Shown: one piece after another, positions 695 through 13,287 of the stretch
Numbering within the stretch: the stretch's first letter is position 1
How the letters are laid out: each line of letters begins with the position of its first letter
From: Clostridia bacterium
GTDB lineage: Bacteria; Bacillota; Clostridia; Christensenellales; Aristaeellaceae
Assembly (NCBI GenBank): GCA_017396845.1
Contig: JAFQKQ010000042.1
Location: forward strand, 1-56,891
Direction: 5' to 3'
Length of the DNA stretch: 56,891 bases
Program-made: the position numbers and the translations under genes
Notes under the pieces: generated by a model
Told to the model about the DNA's origin: nothing
The model's database searches: none
What the model saw: only the letters and a program-made list of their open reading frames with translations

Positions 695-1186
695 ATGAAG
701 AAAACAAAGAAACTGCTCTTCGTCGTCCTGATGCTTGCCATGGTGCTGTCCGTGTTCACTGCCTGCGCAGACACCGTTGCTCAGAATTCCGAGGAAGTCC
801 CCCAGCAGCCCCCTGCCGCCGAGTATGTTCAGGGCGATAAGATGGAGGATTTCACTGTAATCACCCATGACGGCAAAGAAGTTTCCCTTTACGATATTCT
901 GGAGCAGAAGGATATGGTTCTGCTGAACTTCTGGGCCACCTGGTGCGGTCCCTGCGGCATGGAATTCCCTGCCATGGAGGAAGCATACCGGCAGTACAAG
1001 GACAGATTGAGATCCTGGCCATTTCCACTGACCCTTCCGATACCGCCGAGGACATCGCAGACTATGCTGGAGATATGGGTCTCACCTTCCTCATGGCGCC
1101 GGATACCATCGGCATTTCCGATCGTTTTCCCACTGCAAGTATCCCTGTCTCCGTTGTCATTGATCGGTTCGGCACGGTATGCCTGA
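695..1186 (+). CDS. TlpA-like thioredoxin lipoprotein, N-terminal part (frameshifted)
   Basis: Residues 1-23 form a lipoprotein-like signal (MKKTKKLLFVVLMLAMVLS, then FTAC with Cys24 as likely lipidation site). A TlpA/AhpC-type thioredoxin domain follows, with WATWCGPC as the redox CXXC motif. After YRQYKD, at about 1001-1005, the sense continues in another frame (QIEILAIS, see the next entry). One base appears to be missing, so residues after about 103 of this frame are not real protein. An unbroken gene would run 695-2445 and encode roughly 583 residues. The role would be extracytoplasmic thiol-disulfide exchange. It may be a pseudogene or a sequencing/assembly slip. Start chosen from the TAAGGAGAT site. 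Confidence 0.7.
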   Translation: MKKTKKLLFVVLMLAMVLSVFTACADTVAQNSEEVPQQPPAAEYVQGDKMEDFTVITHDGKEVSLYDILEQKDMVLLNFWATWCGPCGMEFPAMEEAYRQYKDRLRSWPFPLTLPIPPRTSQTMLEIWVSPSSWRRIPSAFPIVFPLQVSLSPLSLIGSARYA

Positions 1187-2445
1187 TTGAGGGCAGCGCA
1201 AAAACTGACAGCGAAACCTTTACCAGACTGTTTGATATCTTTATCGGTGATGACTACACCGAATCCATCCTTCTGCCCATAATGAATGCTGAACTGCCCA
1301 GCGTGGAGCCCGCCTCCTCCGAGGAGCTTTCCGGGGCGCTGGACAGCGATCTGATCTTTACCAACAGCACGAATCCCTACAACTGGCCCATGACTGTAGC
1401 CGAAAAGGAAGGCAGAACCGTTCTGGTATCCGAAAACTACACCTGCCCGGGCAGTGTCAGCGCGCTGAACACCACTGTGGAAGCAAAAGCCGGCGACGCC
1501 CTCGTGATCTCCTTCAAGATGGGTGCAGAGGCTCCCATGGACCGGATGACCCTGTTCGTAAACGGCGAAGCGGTGAAATATTTTGGCAGCACCCGGGACT
1601 GGGGTACCTACGCCCACACCTTCGGCCGGGACGGCGCCTATGATGTAAGAATTTGCTACAGCAAGGAAATTTACTCCCGCGACAAAAATGCTTACCTGTG
1701 GATCGACAGCATTCAGCTGCTGTCCGGCGACGAAGCTGCCGCTGCCCTGGAGCAGAATCCCCGGTACATCGTCAGTCCCGAGACCAGCATTCAGCTGCTG
1801 AACGAAGATGCCAGGCTTGTCGTCGTCTATCTTGAGGCAGACCCCGATATAATGAGTTATTACTACATTCTCGATGGCGTTTGGAATGTTAAAGCCACTT
1901 TGGACGAAACCGTTGATCCTGAGCTGACTTACTTCCGGGACAGCCAATTAAGGAATTACAGCCTCCTGGAATACCAGAAGGAAGACGGCTATTATATCGA
2001 CTTTACGCCGCCGGAAAGCGAAATCTCCTTCTTCCTGGACGTTGTCATGGGCAATGACTACATCTCCCTGTCCGGTTTTGTCGACGAAGAGGCTGCTGAC
2101 GAGCTGTGCGCCCTGTTTAAATACTACAGCGGTCGTACGTACTGCTGGAAGTATGCAGATGAAACCGTCGATGCTGCAGCTGTTGCCGGTGACGCGACCT
2201 ACACCATCACCTATACCGACCAGAACGGCAATCCCGTCCAGGGCGTTATGTGCCAGGTCTGCGATGAATCCACCTGTCAGGTCTTTGTTTCCGGTTCCGA
2301 CGGCGTTTGCACCATCACCCTGCCCGCCGGCGTCTATGAAATCCATACCCTGAAGGTTCCCGAGGGATACGAGGGCGACACCGCCACAGTTACCGAAACG
2401 CCTGTCGGCGGCGGCGAATTGAGTTTCGTGCTGACCAAGAAATAA
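1003..2445 (+). CDS. TlpA-like thioredoxin lipoprotein, C-terminal part (frameshifted)
   Basis: This continues the preceding gene in a shifted frame and has no start of its own. It begins with the second half of the thioredoxin fold (QIEILAISTDPSDTAEDIA, then IPVSVVIDRFGTV with the expected cis-Pro loop). A long middle region with a beta-sandwich look follows (VSALNTTVEAKAGDALVISF, LFVNGEAVKYF). The last ~80 residues (ITYTDQNGNPVQGVMCQV ... GVYEIHTLKVPEGYEG) resemble a prealbumin-like Cna-B/SpaA domain, common on Gram-positive surface proteins. The protein would be membrane-anchored and exposed. The two additional redox genes downstream suggest they share a thiol-redox task. The coordinate given is where the restored frame begins. 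Confidence 0.65.
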   Translation, partial: QIEILAISTDPSDTAEDIADYAGDMGLTFLMAPDTIGISDRFPTASIPVSVVIDRFGTVCLIEGSAKTDSETFTRLFDIFIGDDYTESILLPIMNAELPSVEPASSEELSGALDSDLIFTNSTNPYNWPMTVAEKEGRTVLVSENYTCPGSVSALNTTVEAKAGDALVISFKMGAEAPMDRMTLFVNGEAVKYFGSTRDWGTYAHTFGRDGAYDVRICYSKEIYSRDKNAYLWIDSIQLLSGDEAAAALEQNPRYIVSPETSIQLLNEDARLVVVYLEADPDIMSYYYILDGVWNVKATLDETVDPELTYFRDSQLRNYSLLEYQKEDGYYIDFTPPESEISFFLDVVMGNDYISLSGFVDEEAADELCALFKYYSGRTYCWKYADETVDAAAVAGDATYTITYTDQNGNPVQGVMCQVCDESTCQVFVSGSDGVCTITLPAGVYEIHTLKVPEGYEGDTATVTETPVGGGELSFVLTKK

Positions 2446-2456
2446 CCCGGTTCCGT

Positions 2457-2490
2457 CCCGGCTGATCCTGTCTGGATCAGCCGGGATTTG
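2457..2490 (+). terminator. Rho-independent terminator after the TlpA-like gene
   Basis: A perfect 12-bp stem, CCCGGCTGATCC at 2457-2468 and its complement at 2474-2485, closes a 5-nt loop. The following ATTTGTTG is only moderately T-rich. Confidence 0.75.
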
Positions 2491-2553: not shown

Positions 2554-3312
2554 ATGGCCAAAAAAGGATCTGTGCTGCGGTATCTGATCTCCGCGGCAAC
2601 TGTCTTGCTTCTGCTTCTGCTTGCGTGGCAGTGTCTGGACGTTTATATAACCGGCAACCGTCCCGCCAATCTGGACGGCTACGGTCTGCACATTGAAAAC
2701 GTCTACCGGGCGGAGGATGTGGGCCTGCGTCTGAGGAGCATCGGCATCTGGGCGATTGTGTATGTGCTGCTCCTCGCGGCCGGGGCTCTCTGGCTTTCGG
2801 ACCGGAAACCGGATTTGCCCGGCATGGAGCCTGACAACCGGCTGCGGCTGATGAAAAAAAGGCTCCGCGCCCTTCCGAAGGAAGCCCAAAGTCAGGAGAA
2901 CTGCCGGAAAAGGGTTCGTCTCTGTGCTTTGGCGGCAGTCCTGCTCTGCGCAGCCATGGGCCTTTCCTACCTTCTGAACCGGGAGCATTTCATGTCCTGG
3001 GATCTGGAAACGGTGATGGGAGATATGCTGATGCACACCGTGCCCTGGGTGGCTGCCGCCTTTGCTGTCCTCGTGGGAGCCGCCTTCCTCTGCAGACGCA
3101 GTATGGAGAAGGAAATTGCGCTGCTGAAGGGGCTGGCTGCCGACGCTGCACCGGAAGTCCCAAAGGAAACAGAATCCCTGCTCCCTATAATCCGTGTCTG
3201 TCTTTTCGCCGGGGCTGTTGTACTGGTCGTGCTGGGCATCCGAAACGGAGGCATGCGGGATGTGCTTGTCAAAGCCATTAATATTTGTACGGAGTGTATC
3301 GGCCTTGGATAA
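2554..3312 (+). CDS. Membrane protein with C-terminal CD1871A-type CXXC tail
   Basis: The product has 252 residues and starts at the ATG after TAGGAGG. A first membrane segment (YLISAATVLLLLLLAW) precedes an extracytoplasmic-looking stretch. Further segments lie near IWAIVYVLLLAAGALWL, LCALAAVLLCAAMGLSYLL and VAAAFAVLVGAAFLC, with a final one ending in GGMRDVLVKAINICTECIGLG. That tail matches the small CD1871A family of clostridial CXXC proteins, here fused to a larger body. The gene overlaps the next by 8 bp, which points to translational coupling. I infer a partner role in electron or thiol transfer with the polyferredoxin-thioredoxin encoded next. The body of the protein is not recognised. 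Confidence 0.7.
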   Translation: MAKKGSVLRYLISAATVLLLLLLAWQCLDVYITGNRPANLDGYGLHIENVYRAEDVGLRLRSIGIWAIVYVLLLAAGALWLSDRKPDLPGMEPDNRLRLMKKRLRALPKEAQSQENCRKRVRLCALAAVLLCAAMGLSYLLNREHFMSWDLETVMGDMLMHTVPWVAAAFAVLVGAAFLCRRSMEKEIALLKGLAADAAPEVPKETESLLPIIRVCLFAGAVVLVVLGIRNGGMRDVLVKAINICTECIGLG

Positions 3313-4834
3313 GATAAAAAACTGGATCAAATCCCATATTCCCACTCAGCGCAGACTTGTCCAGCTGTATGCTGCGCTGCTGTACAACGCCCATCTGAAG
3401 GGCTATATCACCGGCAATATTTACACCGGAGCCGTGAAGAATCTATGCGTTCCTGGCTTCAACTGCTACTCCTGTCCCGGTGCCGTGGGCGCCTGCCCTC
3501 TGGGCGCCCTGCAGAATGCGGTGGCCGCTTCCGGAAGCAGAGCCCCGACCTATGTGCTGGGCGTCCTGCTGCTGTACGGACTGATCTTCGGCCGTACCGT
3601 CTGCGGCTGGCTGTGTCCCGTAGGCCTGATGCAGGAACTGCTGCACAAGATCCCCACAGTGAAGATCCGGAAGAACTTCGTCACCCGGATCTTAAGCTGG
3701 CTGAAGTATGTGATTCTGGCGGTTTTTGTGATCATCATCCCATTCCTGTATTCCCCGCAGAGCTACCCTGTGCCCGCCTTCTGCAAGTACATCTGCCCGG
3801 AGGGCACCTTCGGCGGCGCCATCGGTCTGCTGGCCAACCCGGTGAACTTCGACAAATTCTCCATGCTGGGGATTCTCTTCACCCGGAAATTTGTGATCAT
3901 GCTGATTATCATCGGCCTGTGCATATTCATTTACCGAGCCTTCTGCCGCTTTATCTGCCCTCTGGGCGCCATTTACGGCCTGTTTGCCAAGGTCTGCGTT
4001 CTCGGTGTGAAGGTGGAAGCGCCTAAATGCACCGACTGCGGCCGCTGTGTCCGGGAATGCCCCATGGATATCCGCCGGGCAGGCGATCATGAGTGTATTC
4101 ACTGCGGAAAGTGCATCGATGTCTGTCCCACCAAGGCCATCTCCTTCAAGGCAGGCAGGATCATCCTCCGCGGACCCCAGATCGACGCCGTGCCCGAGAA
4201 GAAGCGGCGCGTGCGGAAGCTGCGCCTGGGAGCATGGGCTGCCGCACTGGTCCTTCTGGTGTTCGCCCTGTGGTTCTTCAACAAGCCCGCAGCCGCACCG
4301 GAAAAGCCGGAGCCTGCTCCCGCAGAGACTGTGGCTGTCAGCGAGACCCAGGCCGAGACCACCCCTGAAACGGAAGCTGCAGTCGAACCCGCTGTCCCCG
4401 TGGGCTTCGAGGCGGGCATGCGGGCGCCGGACTTTGCGGTGCCGCTGTACCCGGAGCTTCAGGAAACCTTCCGGCTTTCCGATCACCGGGGCAAGACCGT
4501 CGTCATCAACTTCTGGGCGACCTGGTGTACGCCCTGCTGCAATGAACTGCCCCACTTTGACGAGCTGTATCGCAAGTACCCAGAGGACATCGCCATGATC
4601 GCCATCCATTCTTCTCTGGTCACCGAGGATGTTCCCGGTTATCTGGGCAAGCTCGATTACCGGATGCCCTTTGGGTTGGATGAGTCCGGCGACGTGATCG
4701 CCGCCTTCAACGGCTCCACCATGCTTCCCCAGACCGTTGTGGTGGACGCAAACGGCATCATCACCTACAATGCTGTCGGCTCCGTCACCTACGAAAAGCT
4801 GGAAAAGCTGGCGGCAGAGGCAGCTGTGGACTGA
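3305..4834 (+). CDS. Membrane polyferredoxin (NapH/CcoG-like) fused to a C-terminal TlpA-like thioredoxin
   Basis: With the TTG start at 3305 the product has about 509 residues. The TTG overlaps the preceding stop; a longer frame exists upstream but lies inside the preceding gene. The first ~240 residues are a membrane domain with Cys-rich loops (CYSCPGAVGACPLGALQ, CGWLCPVG, CKYICPEG, CRFICPLG), as in NapH/NosR/CcoG electron-transfer proteins. Two [4Fe-4S] motifs follow at about 241-275 (CTDCGRCVRECP and CIHCGKCIDVCP). Then come a membrane helix at about 307-327, a Pro/Glu/Thr-rich linker, and a thioredoxin domain with WATWCTPCC at about 405. The layout suggests ferredoxin clusters inside and thioredoxin outside, so it could carry electrons across the membrane to extracytoplasmic disulfides. 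The electron donor is unknown. Confidence 0.8.
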   Translation: MDKIKNWIKSHIPTQRRLVQLYAALLYNAHLKGYITGNIYTGAVKNLCVPGFNCYSCPGAVGACPLGALQNAVAASGSRAPTYVLGVLLLYGLIFGRTVCGWLCPVGLMQELLHKIPTVKIRKNFVTRILSWLKYVILAVFVIIIPFLYSPQSYPVPAFCKYICPEGTFGGAIGLLANPVNFDKFSMLGILFTRKFVIMLIIIGLCIFIYRAFCRFICPLGAIYGLFAKVCVLGVKVEAPKCTDCGRCVRECPMDIRRAGDHECIHCGKCIDVCPTKAISFKAGRIILRGPQIDAVPEKKRRVRKLRLGAWAAALVLLVFALWFFNKPAAAPEKPEPAPAETVAVSETQAETTPETEAAVEPAVPVGFEAGMRAPDFAVPLYPELQETFRLSDHRGKTVVINFWATWCTPCCNELPHFDELYRKYPEDIAMIAIHSSLVTEDVPGYLGKLDYRMPFGLDESGDVIAAFNGSTMLPQTVVVDANGIITYNAVGSVTYEKLEKLAAEAAVD

Positions 4835-5119: not shown

Positions 5120-6898
5120 CTATTTTGTAAGCGCCAGAAGCTCTGATTTTCTTTTATTGAGCTGATCGATAAACAGTTCGATGCCTGTTTCGAAATTGCG
5201 GAATTGCCAGAGCTCTGTATATTCGGGCAGAATTTCGTCAATCAGGGCGGTCAGAGCGGGTACATCGCCGGCGCTCTCCTTCGGATGAAGCTTCACCTTG
5301 CATACCTCGCTGCCAAGCGTTATGAGCTTTGCCGTCAAGCGGATTTCCCGCTTGAGCCTTTCGTCTAAGGAAATTTTTTCGATATCCTCCATTATGCGGC
5401 GCACGTAGGCGGTTACGTTGTCAAAATAGAAATCGTCGCCGCTGTCCTTAAGGTCGAACAGATGCGCATAGCGCGTCTGCGAGATGGGCAGGCTGAGCTG
5501 CTTGGCGCACATCGTGCATACATGCACGCGTTCAGGCTCGAGCAGATAATAGTTTGCCATGCGGTACATGTGCCGGGAAACCTTTGCGCCTGCGAAGAAG
5601 GCTTCGTCGACAAAGTCTTCCGCGCTTCTGATAAAATCCGCTTTGAAGGTTTCTCCGTCCTGCTTTGCGCCGGTGTTCCAGGCGTATTGTCCGGCCAGCG
5701 CGGCGGGCGTAAGGCACCAGATCCAGCTGTACGGATGGCCGACCTCGCCCCACTCGGTGAGCAGCATGCCTTCTGCGCCGTATTCTGCGGCAAGCTCGGC
5801 GCAGGTTCGGATGTTGAAGGTTGTTACATCCATGCGGCTGGTGAAGCTGCCGTGCGTATTGACGGACGGGCAGACGTAATACTTAACGCCGGCGTTTTGG
5901 TAGTCAATGCAATGCGCGGTCATTCGCTGGGATTGGATCAGTTCATAGCCCCATTCCAGCGCGATGGCGTCTTTGGGCACCATATGATAGCTCTCGGGGT
6001 AGTTGTAAATCATATCCGCCCAGAACATGACGGACTTGCCGTGCGCCTCTTCGATGTGGCTGCTTAGCTTATTGAGCCATTCCATAAACACAACGTCATT
6101 GCCTTTTTCCTTGCAATATGATTCGATCTGATATTTTCCAAGGCCGTATGCCTCGTCAAGACCGATGTTTACGTATTTGCTGGAATAATTGGGCAGAAGA
6201 GAAGCATAAAGATTGCGCATGAAATCAAAGCTTTCCGGAAGCAGGGGATTCAGCGTATTGGGCACTTCATTATCGCTTCCGAAAAGACCGAGATGCCGGA
6301 AGTGCGGTTTTTGCAGCCATTTGCGCATGTGTCCGAAGGAGTTCTGGTTGGGAACAAAGTCAATAAAGCGCTCGGCGCAGTAAGCGTCCAGCTCGCGTAT
6401 ATTTTCCGGCGTCAGGCAGTCAATATCCGCCGTTTCTTCGGGATAGGCGGAATATTTGAAGCAGCCGCCTTCCATGTACAATTGGAATTCGTTGTATTTG
6501 AGCGACGCAAGAAAATCAATCATGGATTTGAGGGTTTCCATCTTGGGAATTCTTCCGCAGTTGACGTCCATCATATAGCCGCGTTTCTTTAATTCCGGCG
6601 CGTCTTCGATATGCATATGCGGAAGCTGTCCCTGAAAGCGCACGATCATCTGACGCAATGAAGTGGCGGCGCGAAACAGGCCTTCTTCCGACGAATAACT
6701 TATGCGGACGCCGCTTGCATCGATCAAGATGCGGTAGGCTTCTTGCGGAAGCACCGAATCACAGGAAAGAGAAACGCCTTGCGTGCCGGCTTGCAGCGCG
6801 CGGAAAAACGCTACAAGGGAATCACCGGCGCTTTGGCGCGGCATACAGTATGTACCGTCGAAAAGCTGGAGGCGGCGCGGCTGCGGAAACAGGATCAT
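5120..6898 (-). CDS. Family 20 glycoside hydrolase (beta-N-acetylhexosaminidase-like)
   Basis: The product has 592 residues and no signal peptide, so it is likely cytoplasmic. An N-terminal GH20b-like domain leads into the TIM-barrel domain from about residue 105 (KKRGYMMDVNCGRIPKMETL). The GH20 catalytic Asp-Glu pair is in NIGLDEAYG, Asp248-Glu249. GH20 enzymes release terminal GlcNAc or GalNAc by substrate-assisted catalysis. The ATG at 6898 is preceded by AGGAGGAAATAC on the minus strand. The gene stands alone with its own promoter and an operator-like repeat. With the sialate O-acetylesterase nearby it suggests use of host or mucin-type glycans. The exact sugar is not readable from sequence. 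Confidence 0.85.
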   Translation of the reverse strand: MILFPQPRRLQLFDGTYCMPRQSAGDSLVAFFRALQAGTQGVSLSCDSVLPQEAYRILIDASGVRISYSSEEGLFRAATSLRQMIVRFQGQLPHMHIEDAPELKKRGYMMDVNCGRIPKMETLKSMIDFLASLKYNEFQLYMEGGCFKYSAYPEETADIDCLTPENIRELDAYCAERFIDFVPNQNSFGHMRKWLQKPHFRHLGLFGSDNEVPNTLNPLLPESFDFMRNLYASLLPNYSSKYVNIGLDEAYGLGKYQIESYCKEKGNDVVFMEWLNKLSSHIEEAHGKSVMFWADMIYNYPESYHMVPKDAIALEWGYELIQSQRMTAHCIDYQNAGVKYYVCPSVNTHGSFTSRMDVTTFNIRTCAELAAEYGAEGMLLTEWGEVGHPYSWIWCLTPAALAGQYAWNTGAKQDGETFKADFIRSAEDFVDEAFFAGAKVSRHMYRMANYYLLEPERVHVCTMCAKQLSLPISQTRYAHLFDLKDSGDDFYFDNVTAYVRRIMEDIEKISLDERLKREIRLTAKLITLGSEVCKVKLHPKESAGDVPALTALIDEILPEYTELWQFRNFETGIELFIDQLNKRKSELLALTK

Positions 6899-9284: not shown

Positions 9285-10739
9285 TTATTCTGCCTCTTCG
9301 GCAACATTCATGGAAAATGCGGGCACGGGCAGGCCCGATTGATTTTTGACGGATGCGTGCTCGGGCGCTGCGCGGATGGAGAAGGCGTAGTTCACATGCG
9401 ATGCGTCCGCATTTTCCGGAATCTTGACGCGGATGATATTTTCGCCCGCAATCTCAGCTTCGGCGGGCACGCGGTTTTCATATCCGCCTACGGAAAAGCC
9501 GGGGAGGGGATTGATATCGGAAACCAGAGGATAGGCGGTTTTAAAGGTAATTTCTATCTCGTTTCCCTTTTTTACCGCGCTTACCGGCATGGGCGACGTG
9601 ACGGCGAATTCATTTCCTATGCCGTATTCCCTTGAGAGCGCGAGCGCGGCCAGCCGTTTGGAAAGCGCCTTTTTCTTCGGCGAATGCGCCCAGTCCGGAT
9701 GCTCGGATTCCGAGCCGAGATCCATGGATACGGTCATCGCGGCATTCGGGATGATGGAGAGCGCATCAAACTGCTTTACGCGCACAATGTCCATCCACGG
9801 GAAAAACGTAAAGCAGTTGTCCAGGTAATCGGATACCTGTACATAGTAAAACGGGAAATCGCGCATAAAGATTTTTCTTTCGTCTTCTACGAACAGCTTA
9901 AGATCCTTATCGTATGCGTCGGCAAAGCTTTTGCCGCAGCCTTCGCTTTCGCCCTGGAAATACAGCATTCCCTTAAAGCGCAGGGGAACGATCGGATGAA
10001 TCAGGGAGTTGTAATAGCCCGCCGCGCAGATATTGCCGGGGCCGTAATGAAGCTTTTCGGCGAGCGACGGGGTCATGAGCTCTCTTAAGCATGCGCCGCC
10101 GGCGGCAATCATCACCATGCCGACGGGAATATCAATGCTTTCGGAAAGCTCCTTCGCAAAATAATATCCCATTGCGGAAAACTCCAAGGATGCTTCCTCA
10201 TCCGGCCTTTTCCACTTCCAATCGGGGCAGATGACGTCGCAGCTCGGATATTCGCAGGTTTCCTGATGCTGATAGGGATAGAGCTGATTCTGCGCAAACA
10301 GGCGGATGGGCGCGTTTTCGTCAAAGGCAATATCCTTATCCAGTATCAGACAGGGCTTCAGCGTAAGCTCGGCGTTGGACTGGCCGCCAACAAGCCACAC
10401 GTCTCCGATCAGGATATCGGAAAGCTCCGCTTTGTGTCCGCATGCATCCGAAAGTGTCATCGTCTGCGGCGTTTTTTCAATTGCATGCGCGGAAAATTCA
10501 ATATGCCAGCGCCCGTCTTCGTTTACGGTGCATTCGCGTTTTTCACCCATGAATTTACCGGTAACAATCGTTCCCGGCGCGTTTGAAAAGCCCCAGATCA
10601 GAGCGGGCTCGTCCCTTTGGAGAACCATATGCGATGAAAATATACCGGCGACCTTAAAGACCGGGATCTCACGCTCGGGGCGAAGGCTTTTGGAAACATA
10701 TTCGTTTGTGATGTTCGGAAGCGCAACCGATGACTCCAT
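9285..10739 (-). CDS. Sialate O-acetylesterase-like SGNH hydrolase
   Basis: The product has 484 residues from the ATG at 10739, which sits 8 nt after GGAGG; an ATG at 10754 lacks such a site. VLQRDEPALIWGFS near the N-terminus is typical of the family. GDVWLVGGQSNAE carries the catalytic serine (about Ser121), LYFQGESEG forms a further SGNH block, and DWAHSPKKK supplies the late Asp-x-x-His motif. Family members remove O-acetyl groups from sialic acids or other acetylated sugars. No signal peptide is seen, so the substrate may be imported first. The FAD oxidoreductase follows after 23 bp and the GH20 gene lies further on. Confidence 0.8.
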   Translation of the reverse strand: MESSVALPNITNEYVSKSLRPEREIPVFKVAGIFSSHMVLQRDEPALIWGFSNAPGTIVTGKFMGEKRECTVNEDGRWHIEFSAHAIEKTPQTMTLSDACGHKAELSDILIGDVWLVGGQSNAELTLKPCLILDKDIAFDENAPIRLFAQNQLYPYQHQETCEYPSCDVICPDWKWKRPDEEASLEFSAMGYYFAKELSESIDIPVGMVMIAAGGACLRELMTPSLAEKLHYGPGNICAAGYYNSLIHPIVPLRFKGMLYFQGESEGCGKSFADAYDKDLKLFVEDERKIFMRDFPFYYVQVSDYLDNCFTFFPWMDIVRVKQFDALSIIPNAAMTVSMDLGSESEHPDWAHSPKKKALSKRLAALALSREYGIGNEFAVTSPMPVSAVKKGNEIEITFKTAYPLVSDINPLPGFSVGGYENRVPAEAEIAGENIIRVKIPENADASHVNYAFSIRAAPEHASVKNQSGLPVPAFSMNVAEEAE

Positions 10740-10772
10740 ATTTCTTTCCTCCATATGCGTGTCTCTATCGTC

Positions 10773-11952: not shown

Positions 11953-13287
11953 ATGAACGGTACCAACCTATTTCAGGAGAGCATTATCCGCGACATGTCC
12001 GAAGGCGTTTTGACGATCGCCTTTGACGGCGTGATCGGCTATGTAAATCCCGCTGCGGAGGAGATTCTGAACATGCGCGCAGATATGCTGGTCGGAAAAC
12101 GCTTTGCGCTGTGCTTTTTTGAATATGCCGAAAACGATCGGTTTACGCAGGCGGTGCTGGACGCGGTATACGACAGAGATTCCGCCCACAGAAGCATTGT
12201 TCCTTATTTTGATGGGAATATCACGCGTCAATTGCAGGTAACGTCCTCCTTCCTTATGAACGGTTCGGAAAAGGCCGGTCTGATCGTTGTGTTCAACGAT
12301 ATCAGTGAATTGAGCGAACTCAGGGACGCTGTAAAGGCTATGGAGCGCATTCGCACGCTCAACAGCCGGCTCGATAAGCGCTACCGTCTCTTAAGCGAAA
12401 CCTTCGGCAGATTCCTGTCCGATGATATCGTGCGCGAGCTGCTGGAAACGCCGGATGGGCTTGCGCTCGGCGGAAGAAAAAGAAAGATCACCATTATGAT
12501 GAGCGATCTTCGCGGCTTTACTGCGATGAGCGAAAGGATGGAACCCGGAAAGCTGCTTTCCATGCTCAATCATTACCTTGGAGAAATGACGGAGATCATT
12601 CAGAAGCACGGAGGCACGATCATTGAATTCATCGGCGACGGCATCATGGCCATATTCGGCGCGCCCGCCTATTTTGATGATCATGCCGAGAAAGCGGTTG
12701 CGGCGGGCGTTGAAATGCAGAGCCGCATGGTTGAGGTCAATCGCTGGAATGAAGAAAACGGTTGCCCGGCGCTTGAAATGGGCATCGGCATTAATACGGG
12801 CGATGTGATTGTCGGAAACATCGGCTCTGAAAAGAGAACCAAATACGGCGTTGTCGGAAGCCAGGTGAATCTCACTGGGCGCATCGAAAGCTACACGGTG
12901 GGCGGACAGGTGCTGATTTCTCCAACCACTCGAAGCCTTATCAAAGCGCCTATGGAAATCGGAAGCGAACTGGAAGTGTCGCCCAAGGGCGTGAACGAGA
13001 AAATCGTGCTTTCGCAGGTTGTGGGACTGGGTGCGCCCTATCATGTGCATGCATCGGTTCATTCGTCCGCGCCGAACGCACTTGCAAGGCCTATAGACGT
13101 CAAGTTTTCTGTAATCGATGGAAAGCACTGCTCCGACGCCGATGCAAAAGGCGTGTTTACTGCCGTCTCGGATTCACAGGCGGTTCTTTTCACAAACAGC
13201 GCACTGCGTCCGCTTGACACATCAAAATCTCCGTCGGCGGAGATGTGTTTGCAAAAGTGCTTCGCGAATTTGAGGGCGGCTGGCTGA
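11953..13287 (+). CDS. PAS domain-class III adenylate/guanylate cyclase (C-terminus frameshifted)
   Basis: Residues 1-115 form a PAS sensor (VLTIAFDGVIGYVNPAAEEI) and 120-165 a helical linker. Residues 175-340 hold the class III cyclase domain with metal-binding Asp185 (SDLRGFT) and Asp229 (FIGDGIMAIFG) and the NLTGR motif with Asn306 and Arg310. The base-specifying position is Ser303 (VVGSQVN), where adenylate cyclases usually have Asp and guanylate cyclases Cys. The C-terminal domain has a PilZ-like look. At about 13215 one base seems lost: another frame continues IKISVGGDVFAKVLREFEGG to TAA at 13368-13370, while this frame ends at 13285-13287. The ribosome site is AAGGAGAACGAGC. Output: a cyclic nucleotide, base uncertain. 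Confidence 0.75.
   Translation: MNGTNLFQESIIRDMSEGVLTIAFDGVIGYVNPAAEEILNMRADMLVGKRFALCFFEYAENDRFTQAVLDAVYDRDSAHRSIVPYFDGNITRQLQVTSSFLMNGSEKAGLIVVFNDISELSELRDAVKAMERIRTLNSRLDKRYRLLSETFGRFLSDDIVRELLETPDGLALGGRKRKITIMMSDLRGFTAMSERMEPGKLLSMLNHYLGEMTEIIQKHGGTIIEFIGDGIMAIFGAPAYFDDHAEKAVAAGVEMQSRMVEVNRWNEENGCPALEMGIGINTGDVIVGNIGSEKRTKYGVVGSQVNLTGRIESYTVGGQVLISPTTRSLIKAPMEIGSELEVSPKGVNEKIVLSQVVGLGAPYHVHASVHSSAPNALARPIDVKFSVIDGKHCSDADAKGVFTAVSDSQAVLFTNSALRPLDTSKSPSAEMCLQKCFANLRAAG

Follow-up and report, generated by a model that had tools for sequence, protein, structure and literature searches.

A conserved protein pair of gut Clostridia as a candidate ferredoxin-fed path for exporting thiol-reducing power

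Anaerobes that seemingly lack quinones, and often CcdA as well, still encode exported thioredoxins, and how these could be reduced is the question raised by two overlapping genes, A and B, in a 56,891-nucleotide stretch of DNA from a Clostridia bacterium (contig JAFQKQ010000042.1; hereafter the window). Gene A (2554..3312, plus strand) encodes a membrane protein ending in a CXXC tail and gene B (3305..4834, plus strand) a NapH-like membrane polyferredoxin followed by a transmembrane helix and a ResA/TlpA-type thioredoxin; a ferredoxin-fed relay made of the two would explain how exported thioredoxins are reduced in such organisms. On the strength of sequence comparison and structure prediction, we put a probability of roughly 60% on A and B forming an outward path of thiol reduction that is fed by ferredoxin and does the work of CcdA/DsbD without being a member of that family, and by other chemistry. 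The conserved pair is carried by many gut Clostridia.

A preliminary description of this DNA had read in B, within one chain, a NapH/CcoG-like membrane domain, two [4Fe-4S] motifs, a membrane helix and a thioredoxin with the active site WCTPC. The Pfam domains of the 509-amino-acid (aa) protein and its AlphaFold2 model agree with this reading: Fer4_5 matches in two stretches (3.3e-18), Fer4 within residues 235-283 and Redoxin/AhpC-TSA at about residues 370-495, and the model (pLDDT 83.2, pTM 0.74) has membrane-length helices at 80-95, 133-152, 179-208 and 297-326, its thioredoxin domain being modelled with confidence. As in NapH-type proteins, the Fer4_5 membrane module is accompanied by two CX3CP motifs that are common to NapH and placed at the inner side (Cys100/104, 3602..3616; Cys214/218, 3944..3958) and by two invariant [4Fe-4S] motifs with Fer4 matches (Cys242/245/248/252 and Cys264/267/270/274, 4028..4126), which are predicted to be cytosolic and have flanks rich in lysine and arginine (K+R). 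B scores under the NapH cut-offs (71.3 of 213.05 bits for TIGR02163 and 64.3 of 234 bits for NF007013), and the CcoG model matches it weakly (35.6 bits, cut-off 316.7). The transmembrane helix between ferredoxin and thioredoxin (residues 309-325, 4229..4279) is found in 64/64 aligned fused proteins and in the model. The thioredoxin domain (residues 370-495, 4412..4789; Redoxin, 3.4e-19; WCTPC at 4523-4537) is of the ResA/TlpA type by its Redoxin fold, its CXXC and a proline at the cis-Pro position (Pro475, in 63/64), and it stays below the cut-off of the ResA subfamily NF002854 (86.2 of 170 bits); its nearest folds are ResA, thioredoxin-like proteins of Geobacter and Chlorobium, the pneumococcal Etrx1/2, TlpA and the C-terminal domain of DipZ. 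No match to DsbD_TM (PF02683) was obtained in A or B at E up to 0.1, Pfam reported no FMN-binding domain in A, B or the pieces of the upstream gene, and the catalytic domain of ferredoxin:thioredoxin reductase (FTR) is absent among B's 21 Pfam matches, A's, and the NCBIfam matches listed (25 of 68 for B).

Gene A, with an ATG start and a TAA stop, encodes a five-helix membrane protein of 252 aa whose residues 216-252 (3199..3309, plus strand) exceed the cut-off of the NCBIfam family CD1871A_fam (NF040920, 36.7 bits; cut-off 32) and which ends in the tail KAINICTECIGLG with CTECIGLG at the C-terminus, the CXXC being formed by Cys245 and Cys248. The gene upstream of B had been described as overlapping it and ending in a CD1871A-type tail, which this score and an 8-nt overlap bear out. 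To our knowledge, CD1871A_fam is solely a named family. The longest open reading frame (ORF) of B begins at GTG 3194, and its start is likely the TTG at 3305, contained in the last codons of A (GGC-CTT-GGA-TAA); the same geometry, in which the two genes overlap by eight nucleotides, recurs in 48/77 relatives examined and points to translational coupling of A and B. Pfam yields nothing for the membrane body of A (2554-3198) at E up to 0.1, the model of A (pLDDT 86.2) matches no fold of the PDB at E < 0.001, and the mean column identity of the body is 19%. Its end, by contrast, is nearly fixed: CXXC-x-G-x-G, mostly as CTEC(I/V)GLG, occurs in 78/79 tails found by profile (56/56 in an alignment whose rows were chosen by that pattern, hence by construction).

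How firmly A and B belong together was assessed in several collections that overlap in some genomes. At least 593 relatives of B were confirmed in one species-genome collection, and the best 80 of these, retrieved via the peptide patterns NCYSCP[GA]A and [AS]CP[IL]G[AS]LQ[AN][VAS], were examined as loci; the closest records to B among the matches listed are mostly metagenome-assembled genomes labelled Clostridia, Clostridiales, Oscillospiraceae or Oscillibacter, animal gut being the source of many. Further counts come from a relatives sample of 60 genomes (the source genome included; 36 of them in the same family), from a phylum sample of 199 genomes (each at least 90% complete except the source genome, a 2.79-Mb draft that is 73% complete) and from an order sample in which 50 carriers were compared with 100 non-carriers. 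A CD1871A tail lies upstream of the NapH-like gene in 80/80 loci, 79 of the tails having been found by profile; that of L118 lies in a broken frame, and that of L066 consists of the last 16 residues at a contig start. The thioredoxin is fused in 73/80, an overestimate since the loci were ordered by likeness to the fused protein, and is the next gene in three more (L071, L074 and L085); of the remaining four, L079 and L069 lie at or near a contig edge and L094 and L114 show none. CD1871A_fam is present in 27/60 genomes of the relatives sample, where 27/28 of its loci (the window's included) adjoin a NapH-like gene and the exception sits at a contig end. In the phylum sample, a search with a NapH-like profile built from 12 tail-linked rows found the gene in 27/27 tail-positive genomes versus 5/172 others. 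Three of these five (G092, G132 and G165) hold a divergent type II pair, two of whose loci (L192 and L194) show beside the gene a tail missed by NF040920, and the other two (G137 and G173) are weak matches. Besides the window's, 29 NapH-like loci from this search were analysed, with no locus for the two weak matches or for second copies in G074 and G182. In a FastTree tree of 122 sequences, the window and the 80 relatives form one clade (support 0.87) and the ten type II proteins another (1.0). The other 26 CD1871A_fam members of the phylum sample sit in frames of 47-125 aa, whereas A is a five-helix protein of 252 aa. Conservation, with at least 593 confirmed relatives of B of which 80 were examined, excludes chance, and the linkage on which the preliminary description had staked its proposal is conserved. 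In Peptoclostridium acidaminophilum, genes annotated as TlpA disulfide reductase family, CD1871A family CXXC motif-containing and 4Fe-4S binding proteins lie close together, the first two being separated by an MFS transporter gene.

We also considered the pair as cargo of mobile elements and rejected this as the main explanation, the NapH-like gene being found in only 1 of 72,556 plasmid records (E up to 1e-30) and in only two unverified phage scaffolds of 50,697 (E up to 1e-20). Two unverified faecal scaffolds labelled 'Bacteriophage sp.' (MT836098.1 and MT836032.1), whose phage origin is doubtful, carry tail, NapH-like and thioredoxin genes together.

Beyond the motifs that it shares with NapH, B has six family-specific cysteines on predicted outer loops, Cys48, 54, 57 and 64 (CVPGFNCYSCPGAVGACP, 3446..3496) and the pair Cys160/164 (CKYICP, 3782..3796), none of which occurs in E. 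coli NapH or YccM, though both have the CX3CP cysteines. All six, together with both CX3CP pairs, are kept in 25/25 proteins of the relatives sample that were found by their tails (the window included) and in 19/19 type I proteins of the phylum sample, counts that are free of pattern selection; the eight ferredoxin cysteines are likewise kept in the 25. In the 80 loci, conservation of Cys54, 57 and 64 is partly due to selection because the retrieval patterns include them, and the agreement of 64/64 fused rows on the cysteines, Cys408/411 of WCTPC among them, is partly selected on NCYSCP. The divergent type II proteins keep Cys54, 57, 64 and 164 in 10/10, Cys160 having gone in 4/10.

Do these cysteines and the thioredoxin face the outside, as an export path would have it? 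Topology was predicted from hydropathy, charge and the AlphaFold2 models (input: 64 fused rows of B, the window included, and 56 rows of A, some long or short rows being omitted). Averaged over the alignments, K+R near the membrane in the main loops of B runs 1.0/6.8/3.7/8.3/1.5: the loops 101-134 (6.8) and 234-308 (8.3) are high, and the stretches around Cys48-64 (1.0), around Cys160/164 (3.7) and after the last helix (1.5) are lower; K+R before the last helix exceeds that after it in 62/64 rows. This charge pattern predicts a cytosolic ferredoxin, with the thioredoxin and the six extra cysteines on the outer side. The CXXC tail of A is predicted from its five helices and alternating charge to end outside as well. 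A cytosolic thioredoxin, which would have undone the preliminary proposal, is contrary to this prediction.

In more distant relatives the partner thioredoxin comes as a separate gene. The 19 distant type I loci of the phylum sample have the tail in a short frame (47-82 aa) and, in 19/19, a separate thioredoxin gene within about 1.5 kb. In 11/19 this neighbour has a putative selenocysteine (UXXC) active site encoded by an in-frame TGA, for example FWTTTUGYC or FFSPGUSFC, and SelB is over the cut-off in 10/11 of these genomes (not in G212); a selenium-dependent partner at the locus makes the thioredoxin the likely redox partner, not a chance neighbour. Lipobox-like patterns (a loose match) are present in 13/24 separate partners, which show signal-peptide-like starts by eye and differ in length and added domains. 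In the Bacillota loci L177-L187, UXXC thioredoxin-like proteins, several with a lipobox-like start, adjoin the CD1871A-NapH-like pair and by their predicted active sites are apparently a selenoprotein group tied to the module. The type II pair (L188-L197) ends in C(L/T/F)SCIG(I/L/V)(Q/E/R) in the nine loci with a tail found, and its NapH-like proteins read LNC(Y/H)AC.

What would feed such a path from the inside? NapH proper is a quinol dehydrogenase. A UbiA-family prenyltransferase is over the cut-off in 1/27 carriers and weak in two more, a count of genes only and one in which 11 of the 27 carrier drafts fall outside the 90%/5% quality class; quinone as donor, a mark of NapH-type proteins, is not indicated by these counts. 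A quinol donor is therefore unlikely, and the donor is likely a soluble low-potential ferredoxin or flavodoxin. The earlier proposal of electrons from cytosolic ferredoxin or flavodoxin survives to the extent that a soluble donor fits this rarity of UbiA; donor, direction and relay are what we infer.

In the scheme that we infer, in its direction, donor, presence of clusters, order of steps and substrates alike, A and B would act together as a complex in the membrane that sends reducing power outward. The two cytosolic [4Fe-4S] clusters of B would receive single electrons from reduced ferredoxin or flavodoxin in the cytosol; these electrons would then move through B across the membrane, passing the CX3CP motifs on the way to an outer-face redox site built from the six family-specific cysteines. 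Held beside this site, the C-terminal CTEC tail of A would accept two electrons as a dithiol and reduce the thioredoxin domain fused to B, which in turn would reduce exported thioredoxin lipoproteins and their substrates. A more specific version, which is possible and which we advance tentatively, is that of a transmembrane ferredoxin:thioredoxin reductase in which the six cysteines of B would form an outer Fe-S or mixed Fe-S/thiol site and the CXEC-(I/V)-G-L-G tail of A a mobile redox arm passing electron pairs to thioredoxins, selenoproteins in many Bacillota. Mammalian thioredoxin reductase uses its C-terminal -GCUG tail as a redox arm and is our model for the tail of A.

Several observations weigh against outward reduction by A and B as set out here. 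The hydropathy scan misses the first hydrophobic stretch of B (about residues 15-36), so that the side given to Cys48-64 depends on how the second helix is oriented. It also offers an extra candidate helix at 217-233 (score 1.41) which, if real, would place the ferredoxin outside; we set this helix aside because it abuts 197-213, the model has only short helices at 212-217 and 219-225, and the ferredoxin flank is K+R-rich. The outer stretch 54-62 with its cysteines is modelled at pLDDT < 50. Type II proteins have no cysteine aligned at position 48, one lying 1-2 residues away, and a thioredoxin is missing from the nearest 1.5 kb or so in 5/10 of their loci. SelB is over the cut-off also in 4/8 genomes with a CXXC partner. 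No client or substrate gene recurs beside the pair in the 80 loci (frames of at least 100 aa). According to the part of PMC5928378 on CX3CP motifs, those of NosR are probably without a cluster, and the function of the motif is unsettled. To these points belong the counts for the order sample and the genus given next.

The preliminary description had expected ccdA/dsbD to be absent where the module is present, and this is not borne out as a rule. DsbD_TM occurs in 11/26 carriers versus 132/172 non-carriers of the phylum sample (p=0.0007) and, among family members in the relatives sample, in 5/23 versus 8/13 (p=0.03); in the order sample the figures are 11/50 versus 15/100 (p=0.36), and both same-genus relatives have it. 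These tests ignore shared ancestry, and the carriers include marginal matches in G116 (9e-4), G032 (4e-5) and G311 (4e-4). PF02683 has no match in the source genome, itself an incomplete draft, and this lack is weak evidence because both congeners have DsbD_TM. Replacement of CcdA as a clean rule was rejected, the two systems being anticorrelated in the phylum sample and not in the order sample; they are not mutually exclusive. In the order sample, 39/50 carriers show no CcdA that could serve an exported thioredoxin.

The other ways of reading the pair are each less likely than outward reduction. An inward path, in which the outer thioredoxin would oxidise exported proteins and electrons would run via A and B to a cytosolic acceptor, making disulfides like DsbB/VKOR, has in its favour that the parts are reversible in principle and that NapH-like modules, in the portion of PMC8238504 drawn on here, serve reductases and oxidases. 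We regard it as unlikely, given that a UXXC site in the relatives' partners suits reduction and that a quinone route is unlikely in 26/27 carriers. Moreover, the thioredoxin of B is nearest the ResA/TlpA/Etrx kind, which acts reductively, and the potential of ferredoxin is too negative for it to take electrons from thiols.

Doubtful to a similar degree is that the pair serves one dedicated client, for example in metal reduction or in selenium or metal uptake, on which alone the thioredoxin would act. CcoG is reported in metal reduction, and its weak match to B and the varying lengths and added domains of the partner thioredoxins would suit a dedicated client. Against this, no client gene is conserved beside the pair: once A, B, thioredoxin and frames overlapping them (identified by eye on examples) are set aside, the cluster of neighbours that comes next is a generic ABC ATPase in 12/80 loci, in a clustering (frames of at least 100 aa, E 1e-12) that small or diverged clients would escape. 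Less probable again is that B is a quinol dehydrogenase of the NapH type supplying an extracytoplasmic reductase, with the thioredoxin a mere maturation helper; B does share the Fer4_5 family, both CX3CP and both Fer4 motifs with NapH, yet UbiA is over the cut-off in one carrier only, no reductase gene recurs near the pair, and B lies far under the NapH cut-offs. A redox sensor that relays extracytoplasmic oxidation to the cytosol would have its CXXC tail and Fe-S motifs on opposite sides, as predicted here, and is very improbable, there being no signalling domain in A or B (Pfam) and the 18 conserved cysteines of the NapH-like part and the thioredoxin active site suggesting turnover.

Around the pair, the second thioredoxin lipoprotein that had been noted just upstream is there but not intact. 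Its gene (695..2445, plus strand), with WCGPC and a C-terminal SpaA-like domain, has its frame broken near 1003-1010, by visual comparison with relatives, and runs on in the ORF 943-2445; the break could be an assembly error or mark a broken gene. In near relatives (for example L062, L064 and L067) a comparable position is occupied by a long thioredoxin protein, encoded in most cases on the opposite strand. Between this gene and A-B lies a terminator-like hairpin of 14 pairs (2455..2487, plus strand), a pattern match only, one of nine such hairpins found in the stretch versus 4.7 expected. At 11953-13287 the window encodes a PAS domain joined to an adenylate/guanylate cyclase catalytic domain. 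On the minus strand, at 5120-6898 and 9285-10754, it encodes a glycosyl hydrolase family 20 enzyme and a protein with a sialic acid-specific acetylesterase domain, which may point to host-glycan use. Another NapH-like protein of the same genome is represented by its C-terminal ferredoxin part at a contig start (L060, G000:C76:1-4068); the module may be present twice.

A search by title and abstract opening, in which subscription papers and preprints were not covered, found no work joining a NapH-like module, CD1871A and thioredoxin; the task proposed for A-B and the membrane module are known, and in the literature covered no description was met of their combination or of the outer site with six cysteines. 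The closest systems in coupling are FTR and the ferredoxin-dependent flavin thioredoxin reductase, which link one-electron ferredoxin to two-electron thioredoxin reduction; they are cytosolic and gave no match here, whereas A-B would act across the membrane. In its proposed task, electrons for exported thioredoxin-like proteins, the pair resembles CcdA/DsbD/DipZ (PF02683), which employ a relay of cysteine pairs, A-B instead having Fe-S motifs and no DsbD_TM homology. In DipZ a thioredoxin-like domain is attached to a relay of the CcdA type, a fusion that resembles B, and the C-terminal domain of DipZ is the fold match mentioned above.

With the NapH, NosR and PceC systems (eLife 2021;10:e66878, PMC8238504), in the part of that study used here, B shares the Fer4_5 module, a proposed transfer of electrons across the membrane and a modular outer carrier; the outer carrier of A-B would be a thioredoxin, joined by six extra outer cysteines and a CD1871A partner. 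The same part of PMC8238504 counts 2465 gene clusters of NapH-like modules with flavinylated outer domains, proposes a transmembrane Fe-S route and distinguishes three carrier classes (thioredoxin-like, cytochrome and flavin) between which there is some interchange; there, thioredoxin-like protein is tied to DsbD and P19 iron clusters, not to NapH-like proteins. The DsbD-DUF3570-DUF4266 system outlined there pairs DsbD with a flavinylated protein and has a CXC motif, compared with CXEC-x-G-x-G in the tail of A. If outward reduction by A-B is right, thioredoxin would join the published outputs of NapH-like modules, the CD1871A family would gain a role and a gene found at least 593 times a suggested function, and the export of thiol-reducing power would have a second chemistry, apart from the cysteine relay of CcdA/DsbD.

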